Shown here: piece after piece, positions 39,055-42,795 of the stretch
How the letters are laid out: every line of letters begins with the position of its first letter
How positions within the stretch are numbered: position 1 is the first letter of the stretch
NCBI GenBank assembly: GCA_019873645.1
Contig: JAIOAX010000001.1
Location: forward strand, 234,854-298,853
Reading direction: 5' to 3'
From: Chloroflexota bacterium
GTDB lineage: Bacteria; Chloroflexota; Anaerolineae; B4-G1; SLSP01
Length of the DNA stretch: 64,000 bases
Program-made: the position numbers and the translations under genes
The notes under the pieces: generated by a model
Told to the model about the DNA's origin: nothing
Databases searched by the model: none
Seen by the model: the letters and a program-made list of their open reading frames with translations, nothing else

Positions 39055-39112
39055 AGCGGAGCTATTATAACACCTAACGCAAATTTGGAAAGATTGATGA
39101 TATTGCACTTTT

Positions 39113-39297
39113 GCGCCCCCGCTCCCGGCCTCGCCCCAAAGGGAGCGAGGAGGTAAATAGCGGGGGATTTTGCGCGGCTTCGCCGCGCAAAATCCCCCTT
39201 TGAGAAATCCCCCGCTCTCCCCGCGTGCGGGGAGAGCGGGGGCAGGGGGTGAGAGGGGAAAACGCAAAAGAACTGCCCCCGTCCTGAAATGCACCCC
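39113..39297. repeat. Dispersed palindromic intergenic element, copy B
   Basis: Near-identical to 8830-9005; 17-bp stem GGGGGATTTTGCGCGGC-TTC-GCCGCGCAAAATCCCCC (39162-39198) and 16-bp stem at 39209-39242. Confidence 0.92.
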
Positions 39298-39300
39298 CGA

Positions 39301-39462
39301 AATGTGTGCATTTCAACTTCGGGGCGAATCTTGCTGTGGCCGGTCTCTGACCGCGCCACTGCGGGATCAGCCGCTGCGCAGGCGCGGTCTGGCGACCGGC
39401 CTGAGTAGCGCCCGGTCGCCGTATCCGATAAATCGCCCCGGTCCTGAAATGCACCCTACCGA
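39301..39462. repeat. Second modular palindromic element (cggtctNNagaccgg / ggccNgtctctgaccgcgcc modules)
   Basis: Modules shared, re-ordered, with the reverse complement of 57030-57160. Confidence 0.75.
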
Positions 39463-39472
39463 AATCGCAGCA

Positions 39473-39500
39473 TTGATTTGTTAGCATTTTGTAGTATAAT
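39473..39500 (+). promoter_or_regulatory. Candidate sigma70 promoter of the CaCA leader
   Basis: TTGATT - 16 nt - TATAAT. Confidence 0.55.
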
Positions 39501-39624
39501 TAGTATAAATTCGGTTTTGGACTCTTTGTGTAGACGAGTTCCCTTATGGATACATATTACAAGACCCATTCCGCGATCAAGGACGATCCTGAACACGTGC
39601 TGGGTAGCGTTTACCTGTGGAGGT

Positions 39625-39714
39625 CACGCTGCACGGTGACGTGATTCTTTTTGCCTGCCCAAAATGCGGTTTCTAACCGAGGGTGCAGCGTGAGTTGCAT
39701 CCTCGGTTTTTTTT
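39625..39714 (+). promoter_or_regulatory. Candidate transcription attenuator: antiterminator strand plus intrinsic terminator
   Basis: TCACGCTGCAC (39624-39634) is the exact complement of GTGCAGCGTGA (39683-39693), which overlaps the 5' arm and loop of terminator AACCGAGGGTGCA-GCGTGAGT-TGCATCCTCGGTT followed by T8. Confidence 0.6.
39675..39714 (+). terminator. Intrinsic terminator upstream of the CaCA antiporter
   Basis: 13-bp stem, 8-nt loop, TTTTTTTT. Confidence 0.92.
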
Positions 39715-39783
39715 GTTGTCATAAACATTCCAACGCGGCAATATTCCAACGTTCAAACAATTCTCATAAGGAGGTGTAAAAAT

Positions 39784-40818
39784 ATGTTCACAATGATTCA
39801 AGGGAACACCTGGATGCTGGCATTAAGTGGTCTTTTTATCATCGGGGTCCTGGTTGTCAGCTCCGATGTGGCCGTGAAGAAATTCACTGGCCTGTCTGCC
39901 TATTTCAAACTCTCGACAACTTTTATGGGGGCTACCGTGCTTTCACTGGCTACCAGCATCCCGGAAATTTCGGCTCATCTGACGGCTTCGGTCGGCATTC
40001 TGCGGCGCACATTGGATTATCAAATCAGTTCGGCTGTGGTGTTGGGGTCAAATATCGGCTCGGATGTTGTGCAACAGACTCTAATTATGAGCCTGGTTGT
40101 CTTTATCGCCGGCGTACTGCGCTTCAAACGCTACTTTCTTTGGAAGGTGATGGGGCCCATGATCGGAACGACCATTATGTGTCTCGTTCTGGGGTGGGAT
40201 CGCCACTATTCGCGCCTTGACGGCGCCATCCTGTTCGGTACGTTTATTGCCTATATTTACTACCTGTACCTGGATGAGCGCAAGCATTATGAACCGCACA
40301 AAAACGGTTTCTCCGAAACCGGCGAGCCACCCAAGGGAGTGCCTGTTACCCGATGGGAAGCCTTACGGGATAGCTTAATTGCGTTGGTAGCCATGGTTTT
40401 TACCATTGGCAGCGCCATGACCGCGTTGCAGATTGCCGAGGTCATTGTACAACGCACCGGTATCGGCGGTTCGTTGATCGGGGTGACGACGCTCGGTGTG
40501 GCCTCGGCGTTGCCAGAGCTGATCACCGCTGTCTCCGGCATTCGCAACGGCGATCATGGCATTCCCCTCGGTACGCTGGTGGGCAGCAACATCACCAATC
40601 CACTCGTAGCCATCGGCCTGGGTTCGCTCGTGTCTACCTACTGGGTGCCCGGCCCTCTGGTGCTGTGGGATTTGCCCTGGGAGACCATCACCGGGTTGAT
40701 TCTGTGGGCGATTATCTGGTTCAACAAAGGCAAGCTCGGAAGATGGGCCGGCTTCTATCTGATTGCGCTATATATCGTTTATGTGCTGTTGCGTTCGCTT
40801 TTCTTTGCCGTTGACTAA
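39784..40818 (+). CDS. Sodium:calcium antiporter (CaCA family)
   Basis: Two homologous halves: SLATSIPEISAHLTASVGILRRTLDYQISSAVVLGSNIGSDV and LGVASALPELITAVSGIRNGDHGIPLGTLVGSNITNPLVAIGLG. Confidence 0.9.
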   Translation: MFTMIQGNTWMLALSGLFIIGVLVVSSDVAVKKFTGLSAYFKLSTTFMGATVLSLATSIPEISAHLTASVGILRRTLDYQISSAVVLGSNIGSDVVQQTLIMSLVVFIAGVLRFKRYFLWKVMGPMIGTTIMCLVLGWDRHYSRLDGAILFGTFIAYIYYLYLDERKHYEPHKNGFSETGEPPKGVPVTRWEALRDSLIALVAMVFTIGSAMTALQIAEVIVQRTGIGGSLIGVTTLGVASALPELITAVSGIRNGDHGIPLGTLVGSNITNPLVAIGLGSLVSTYWVPGPLVLWDLPWETITGLILWAIIWFNKGKLGRWAGFYLIALYIVYVLLRSLFFAVD

Positions 40819-40932
40819 AAGTATCGTCTGAGTACGATTGACACAAATGGAGTCCGTAGTATATTGTTCAGGGTGAAGCAGTTTATTGCTAATATTTTTT
40901 GAAACACATTTCGATCCCTGGATGTTTTAACC

Positions 40933-42795
40933 ATGACGCAAACTTTTGAGCGCAAGGGGATGAGCCTGCGGCGTCTGCTGTTTGGCGATCCCCTTTCTAC
41001 ATCACAATTGATTCACGAGCGGCTAACGAAGGTCAAAGCGTTGGCCGTTTTTGCTTCTGATGCGCTTTCCTCGACGGCGTATGCCACCGAGGAAATGATG
41101 CTGATCCTCGTCCTGGCCGGCAGCGGCGCGGCACACCTGGCTTGGCCTCTGGCGCTGGCGATTGCCGGGCTGTTGGTGATTGTGGCCTCCTCATATCACC
41201 AGACCATCCACGCTTATCCGAACGGTGGCGGTTCGTACATCGTCAGCCACGATAACCTGGGGCAAGTGCCGGGATTGGTTGCGGCGGCCTCCTTGCTGAC
41301 CGATTATGTCTTGACGGTTTCGGTGAGCATCTCAGCGGGCGTCGCTGCGTTGACCTCGATGGCGCCGCCGCTTTATCCCTACCGGGTTGGAATCGCACTG
41401 GTTTTCATTCTCGTGATGATGATCCTCAACCTGCGTGGCGTCCGTGAGTCCGGCACGATTTTCTCGATTCCCACTTACATTTTCCTGATCATCATGTTTG
41501 GGCTGCTGGCGACCGGCATGGTTAAATGGATTGCTGCCGGGATGCCTGCCCCTTTGCCTCCGCAACGACACTACCCGGTTGCTCATACCTTGACGCTTTT
41601 CCTGATTCTGCGTGCTTTTTCGAGCGGTTGTGCCGCATTGACCGGCGTGGAAGCGATCAGCAACGGGGTGCCGGCTTTCAAACCACCGGAGTCCAAAAAT
41701 GCGGCGACGACGCTGACGGCAATGGCGGTTTTGCTCATCACCTTGTTCCTGGGGGTGACGTTTCTGGCGCATCAGTTTGGGGTGGTGCCTGACGAAGTCA
41801 CCCACGAGACGCTGGTCTCGCAACTTGGACGGGTTGTTTTCGGTAGCAACACGCTGCCCTATTATGCATTGCAGTTCGCCACGGCGCTGATCCTGGTGTT
41901 GGCCGCCAATACCAGCTTCGCCGACTTTCCGCGTCTCTCGGCCATTCTGGCGCGCGACCGCTACATGCCACATCAGTTTTCACACCTGGGCGACCGGCTG
42001 GCTTTCTCCAATGGCATCATCGTGTTGGCCCTGGCTTCTTCGTTGCTGATCGTGCTTTTTGGGGGAACCACAACCCGACTGATTCCGCTGTATGCGTTAG
42101 GGGTTTTCCTTTCGTTTACCCTTTCGCAATTGGGAATGGTGGCGCGCTGGCGCCGCGTCAAAGGCCCGCGCTGGCAACTTAAAGCGCTGGTCAACGGCGT
42201 GGGCGCCTGCGTGACCGGCATCGTCCTGATTATTTTTGCTCTGACCAAGTTCGTGGACGGCGCGTGGATCGTTATTGTCTGGATTCCCATCTTTATCTCG
42301 TTCTTTCTGGCCGTACACCGTCATTATGTCTCGGTGGCTAAGCAATTATCCCTGGAAACGTATGGTGATCCATCGCCTATACATCACAACCGTGTCATTG
42401 TGCCTATTGGCGACGTACATCGCGCGGTACTCGCCGCCTTGCATTATGCGCGGGCGTTATCTGACGATGTGACCGCCGTCTATGTAGAAACCGATCCCAC
42501 ACGCACGCCGCGTATTTTGCAGAAGTGGGAGAAATGGGGTAAGGGCATCCCCCTGGAAATCCTTCCCTCCCCTTATCGCTCTATCATTGCTCCATTGGTA
42601 GAGTATGTGGATCGGGTCAACGATCCAACCCGACGCGACCTGGTTGTAACTATCGTACTACCCCAATTCGTCACGGCCAGGCCCTGGCAACAACTTTTAC
42701 ACAACCAGACGGCCCTCCTGATCCAGATGGCCTTTCTTTTCCGTAAAGAAGTGATCGTTGTCAATGTACCGTTCCACTTGCACGATATAGCGTAA
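40933..42795 (+). CDS. APC family permease
   Basis: FASDALSSTAYATEEMMLIL; 12 TM segments; ALTGVEAISNGVPAFKPPESKNAATTL; C-terminal soluble domain. Confidence 0.9.
   Translation: MTQTFERKGMSLRRLLFGDPLSTSQLIHERLTKVKALAVFASDALSSTAYATEEMMLILVLAGSGAAHLAWPLALAIAGLLVIVASSYHQTIHAYPNGGGSYIVSHDNLGQVPGLVAAASLLTDYVLTVSVSISAGVAALTSMAPPLYPYRVGIALVFILVMMILNLRGVRESGTIFSIPTYIFLIIMFGLLATGMVKWIAAGMPAPLPPQRHYPVAHTLTLFLILRAFSSGCAALTGVEAISNGVPAFKPPESKNAATTLTAMAVLLITLFLGVTFLAHQFGVVPDEVTHETLVSQLGRVVFGSNTLPYYALQFATALILVLAANTSFADFPRLSAILARDRYMPHQFSHLGDRLAFSNGIIVLALASSLLIVLFGGTTTRLIPLYALGVFLSFTLSQLGMVARWRRVKGPRWQLKALVNGVGACVTGIVLIIFALTKFVDGAWIVIVWIPIFISFFLAVHRHYVSVAKQLSLETYGDPSPIHHNRVIVPIGDVHRAVLAALHYARALSDDVTAVYVETDPTRTPRILQKWEKWGKGIPLEILPSPYRSIIAPLVEYVDRVNDPTRRDLVVTIVLPQFVTARPWQQLLHNQTALLIQMAFLFRKEVIVVNVPFHLHDIA

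Follow-up and report, generated by a model that had tools for sequence, protein, structure and literature searches.

The window analyzed here, a 64,000-nucleotide stretch of the genome of a bacterium of the Anaerolineae (Chloroflexota), contains a gene for a CaCA (Na+/Ca2+ exchanger family) antiporter (39784–40818, 344 aa; PF01699, E = 1.5e-33), preceded by a promoter-like site, a 32-aa ORF and an intrinsic terminator, in this order and all on the + strand. The promoter-like site is of the sigma-70 type (TTGATT-N16-TATAAT, 39473–39500, 10 of 12 consensus matches) and would place the transcription start near 39507. By eye, a TTGACA-type promoter similar to that of the window precedes many orthologous leaders. 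The ORF (39546–39644, MDTYYKTHSAIKDDPEHVLGSVYLWRSRCTVT) has the organization MDTYYKTHSAIK-DDPE-HVLGSVYLWRSRCTVT, in which the DDPE motif is encoded by GAC GAT CCT GAA at 39582–39593 and the TGA stop codon occupies 39642–39644. No clear Shine-Dalgarno sequence was found for this ORF; several orthologs have one. The terminator (39675–39714) consists of a stem at 39675–39708, a GTGA loop (39690–39693) and a run of eight T (39707–39714). The end of the ORF overlaps an 11-nt segment, TCACGCTGCAC (39624–39634, designated segment 2), whose exact reverse complement, GTGCAGCGTGA (39683–39693), spans the upper 5' arm and loop of the terminator, so that segment 2 could serve as an antiterminator strand. 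Repeats were observed on both sides of these features: GC-rich palindromes and repeated CCTGAAATGCACCC 5' of the promoter (39100–39460), which resemble intergenic repeat elements, and ATTCCAACG-type repeats 3' of the terminator (39716–39777), similar to four other sites in the same genome.

Part of this layout had been pointed out in an earlier sequence-only reading, which proposed a transcription attenuator beginning at 39546. The promoter is present, the two 11-nt segments are exactly complementary as described, and the terminator lies where it was placed, T run included, with a stem of 15 pairs, two of them G.U, where 13 bp had been counted. When the leader was shuffled 5000 times with dinucleotide composition preserved and the real hairpin kept as the target, the longest Watson-Crick run averaged 5.8 and reached at least 11 in five shuffles (P ~0.001), in line with the earlier estimate that such a match is unlikely by chance. 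Position 39546 is the ATG of the leader ORF; the ORF with its conserved DDPE was not described in that reading.

The antiporter is related by alignment to NCX_Mj, and its best NCBIfam match was TIGR00367 (calcium/sodium antiporter), under the cut-off. The TSxPE motif of repeat 1 is kept; repeat 2 has SALPE and GSNITN in place of the TSLPE and GSNIAD of NCX_Mj. Several of these motif positions are ion ligands in NCX_Mj, and the transported ion may therefore differ from that of NCX_Mj. The next gene (40933–42795) codes for an APC-superfamily permease (AA_permease_2, with a weak K_trans match) and has its own strong promoter-like site, TTGACA-N16-TATATT, at 40838–40865.

We examined the occurrence of the leader upstream of CaCA orthologs. 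A DDPE leader, or once DDPD, was present in 16 of the 17 rows of the main ortholog clade that had at least 250 nt of upstream sequence, and the leader-bearing clade had a support of 100/100 on the CaCA gene tree. In the other part or parts of the tree, 1 of 27 rows (L112) had the leader, by transfer or retention. The DDPES leader and terminator of L112 resemble those of L099, but in the tree the CaCA protein of L112 sits among homologs without a leader; possibly only the regulatory region was transferred. Within the clade, L097 lacks DDPE, although its short ORF (MFEKMHEFQHPGCDIAAVAACAVLLP*) is similar and it may also have a terminator hairpin. The upstream region of L007 ends at a contig end, and L085, which overlaps it there, carries the leader. 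At L040 (1478–4011), two tandem CaCA genes were found, each preceded by its own DDPEG leader and terminator. The gene before this pair codes for an AA_permease_2 (APC/KUP-like) protein related to the permease of the window, and after the pair come genes for an MgtE_N/CBS protein and a transporter of the Nramp family. The CaCA homologs at L060 and L061 have leaders of a different sort upstream, which contain terminator-like hairpins but neither DDPE nor an Rfam match and may represent another kind of attenuator.

Altogether, 20 leaders were collected, including several from very close relatives, and all 20 had a terminator-like hairpin. DDP(E/D) was likewise present in 20/20, a count that partly reflects selection since the leaders were recognized by this motif, and for which the gene-tree count is the better measure. 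Within the window's genome, the DDPE pattern had 13 matches, and among the 10 examined only that of the window was located in such a leader. To find the leader in front of other genes, GAYGAYCCTGARGG together with T5 was searched for; in 397 genomes of the class this detected five genomes with the leader and three chance matches, and in 251 genomes of the phylum it detected two genomes, both already known; this pattern misses variants, including the window leader, and therefore leaves room for such leaders elsewhere. A literature search, with most subscription journals outside its coverage, returned no earlier account of such a leader, either for this gene or in this lineage.

Codon comparisons among close relatives indicated that the leader ORF is under strong purifying selection, and in this frame only. 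For the part before DDPE, pN/pS computed from gap-free alignments of four groups of relatives, right-aligned at the motif, was 0.16 in the leader frame (pS 0.67, pN 0.105) and 1.86 and 1.61 in the shifted frames, values given without a P value because within-group comparisons share ancestry. Selection was weaker after DDPEG (pN/pS 0.62, with the Brevefilum-type group excluded for this part), and the end of the peptide is variable, whereas pairing near the leader stop codon recurs. The leader ORF thus appears to be a translated short ORF, as a ribosome-mediated attenuator requires. The motif starts at codon 13–21 in leaders with an assigned ATG (DDPE occupies codons 13–16 in the window), and its variants include DDPEG, DDPEH (the window and L096), DDPER (L038), DDPES (L112) and DDPDG (L099). 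The Pro codon of DDP(E/D) was CCT in 20/20 leaders, compared with 17 of 141 Pro codons (12%) in seven genes neighboring the window leader. One of the leader scan patterns required CCT; the earlier peptide-level scans did not, and all DDP(E/D) leaders found by them had CCT. The constancy of CCT may come in part from RNA pairing, since CCTGA sits inside a hairpin in some clades. The window peptide has no run of codons for a single amino acid; such a run of regulatory codons marks the amino-acid subclass and not every ribosome-mediated attenuator. A frameshifted reading of the ORF, leading to a CxxC-like tail (FACPKCGF), was dropped as a candidate because by eye the tail did not recur in relatives.

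The alternative pairing was also seen beyond the window. In most lineages, a segment near the stop codon pairs with the terminator loop region through different sequences. In a test based on the best ungapped complementary run between the two regions of each leader, the scores of 11 representatives summed to 105.3 for matched regions and to 78.8 on average (sd 5.5) after permutation, with P = 6e-5 in 100000 permutations and 4.2e-4 without the window; this test was picked after the sequences had been seen and replaced a duplex-energy test that was mostly uninformative because other pairings dominate. An earlier run test with eight representatives agrees. The ungapped test gave no clear pairing in L031, L033, L005, L040 and L096. 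Where a run was clear, its leader strand fell within the interval from 23 nt upstream to 18 nt downstream of the stop codon, and a ribosome terminating there would cover this strand entirely or in part. The target of the pairing is the upper 5' arm and loop in the window and the loop and upper 3' arm in most other lineages.

In the ribosome-free MFE fold, a strong leader hairpin adjoining DDPE (approximately 39594–39644) holds segment 2 of the window, and the predicted probability that this segment is paired within the leader is about 0.6–0.8. We modelled ribosomes by masking a footprint that was assumed to extend 14 nt upstream and 16 nt downstream from the first base of the P-site codon. Masking at the stop codon reduced the antiterminator to zero in 9/9 leaders. 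Masking at DDPE raised it at the earliest length tested in eight of nine (from 0.21 to 0.57 in the window, from 0.00 to just 0.05 in L032) and lowered it in L099. With the full-length transcript, all modelled states favored the terminator, so that the proposed switch would have to be kinetic. Masking is an equilibrium model, and it supports the ON/OFF direction without proof of it.

These data bear on what kind of element precedes the antiporter. The attenuator proposed by the sequence-only reading is supported in that the terminator and the pairing that excludes it are seen again in orthologous leaders whose sequences differ. That reading had left two possibilities, an ion-sensing RNA and a leader-peptide attenuator, of which purifying selection in a single frame supports the latter. 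If the RNA itself sensed an ion or other ligand, the ORF would be incidental; the cation transporter downstream, the conservation of GAYGAYCCTGARGG at the DNA level too, and a long leader fold common to members of the Brevefilum-type group would agree with such a riboswitch. However, selection is frame-specific, leader folds differ between clades with no common fold evident, and in the one group aligned, changes on both sides were seen in just 3 of 37 pairs. Moreover, Rfam searches of the window, of 38 related loci and, at a relaxed threshold, of the leader alone detected no regulatory RNA in these leaders, in accordance with the earlier statement that yybP-ykoY is absent; outside the leader, the L005 locus contains a glmS ribozyme (Rfam RF00234, 72 bits) on its - strand (634–825). 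We give a riboswitch little credence. It is scarcely probable that the ORF codes for a functional small protein whose transcript ends at the terminator, with the antiporter served by a separate promoter. Purifying selection on the peptide would fit this, as would the lineages without clear alternative pairing, but selection weakens after DDPEG, the end of the peptide varies while the stop-codon pairing recurs with support from the permutation test, and only one weak promoter-like site (39716–39745, 9 of 12 matches) lies between the terminator and the gene.

A further alternative keeps the same anatomy and assigns sensing to a charged tRNA or a translation factor instead of Mg2+ itself. Candidates are the decoding of CCU by tRNA-Pro with m1G37, EF-P, and an EttA-like ABC-F protein, and hence ATP. 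The invariant CCT codon is consistent with this, as are the reports that CC[C/U] codons need m1G37 (PMC6335274) and that EttA eases pausing at early acidic residues (PMC11282234). On the other hand, RNA pairing may also account for the retention of CCT in some clades, and it is not evident why a cation antiporter should respond to an amino acid or ATP; we regard this version as unlikely.

We propose that the leader is a ribosome-mediated (leader-peptide) attenuator that turns the antiporter ON when the ribosome does not get past DDPE, a reading to which we assign a probability of roughly 0.68. Its translation-coupled nature is very likely and well supported by sequence comparison; we are also fairly confident that DDPE is the sensing element. 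In this model, a ribosome would translate the 32-aa ORF as RNA polymerase moves along the leader. A ribosome that reaches the stop codon would cover segment 2, the terminator would form and the antiporter would be OFF. With no ribosome, segment 2 would be mostly sequestered in the leader hairpin and the terminator would again form. A ribosome paused or aborted at DDPE would block the hairpin partner of segment 2, and the freed segment would pair with the upper 5' arm and loop of the terminator, allowing read-through into the CaCA gene. This direction, in which pausing or abortion at DDPE turns the gene ON, is the one we favor. If the ribosome dropped off instead of pausing, the leader hairpin could re-form and keep the gene OFF, which counts against the ON reading. 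The tandem CaCA genes of L040, each with its own leader, were counted in favor of a peptide-controlled attenuator. Counted against it were the prevalence of the terminator in all modelled states of the full-length transcript, L097, which lacks DDPE within the clade, the lack of a clear Shine-Dalgarno sequence in the window ORF, the five lineages without clear pairing, and the difference between the pairing target of the window and those of the others.

Pausing or abortion at DDPE would be favored by ribosome destabilization, most plausibly at low free Mg2+. We chose this signal as the leading guess because DDPE resembles the EPDP of MgtL, in which early acidic residues and Pro destabilize or pause ribosomes at low Mg2+, an effect counteracted by EttA (PMC11282234). 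Destabilization of this kind is opposed by high Mg2+ (PMC9718836), and CC[C/U] codons tie Pro decoding to Mg2+ via TrmD (PMC6335274). By analogy, Mg2+ is a plausible signal, at somewhat below even odds. The MgtE_N/CBS and Nramp neighbors at L040 are a weak hint of Mg2+, with unrelated neighbors at other loci, and the nature of the regulated gene, a CaCA antiporter and not a known Mg2+ transporter, was counted against it. More tentatively, Anaerolineae may have evolved, independently of MgtL, a DDPE/CCU nascent-peptide sensor of divalent cations that acts via ribosome destabilization and controls an intrinsic terminator before a CaCA gene. If true, ion status would be read through the ribosome by acidic-Pro leader peptides repeatedly and in more than one phylum, and sensing by ribosome destabilization, known from enterobacterial Mg2+ transporters, would also operate in a distant phylum, with another transporter family and with intrinsic termination. 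The leader would then be a small natural system for testing whether ion status is reported by acidic-Pro nascent chains, and would hint at the cargo of these diverged CaCA antiporters.

Several known systems resemble this arrangement in part. The yybP-ykoY (Mn2+) and M-box (Mg2+) riboswitches also control cation transporter genes in cis, but DDPE leaders matched no Rfam covariance model, and no M-box was detected anywhere in the window's genome, with matches obtained in control genomes. Attenuators of the trp/his type likewise have a translated leader, competing stems and an intrinsic terminator; unlike them, the DDPE leader lacks a run of codons for one amino acid, and the downstream gene is not biosynthetic. 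In mgtQ, a tiny ORF between mgtC and mgtB of Salmonella, acidic residues determine whether stems 1:2/3:4 or stem 2:3 form (PMC8092293); this system controls access to a ribosome-binding site and not a terminator, and its peptide has 8 aa. In mgtL of mgtA (E. coli, Salmonella), an acidic-Pro motif likewise stands early in a short leader ORF before a cation transporter gene, and failure to translate EPDP is proposed to turn mgtA ON (PMC11282234). The motif is located at codons 2–5 in mgtL and at codons 13–16 in the window leader, and the transporter family, peptide and phylum differ. Since the mgtL terminator is Rho-dependent and that of the window is intrinsic, and no peptide homology to MgtL was recognizable by eye, the DDPE leader was not filed as an mgtL-type member. 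The leader-peptide logic itself is known from enterobacterial Mg2+-transporter leaders; as far as we could find, it had no earlier description for this antiporter gene or in this lineage.
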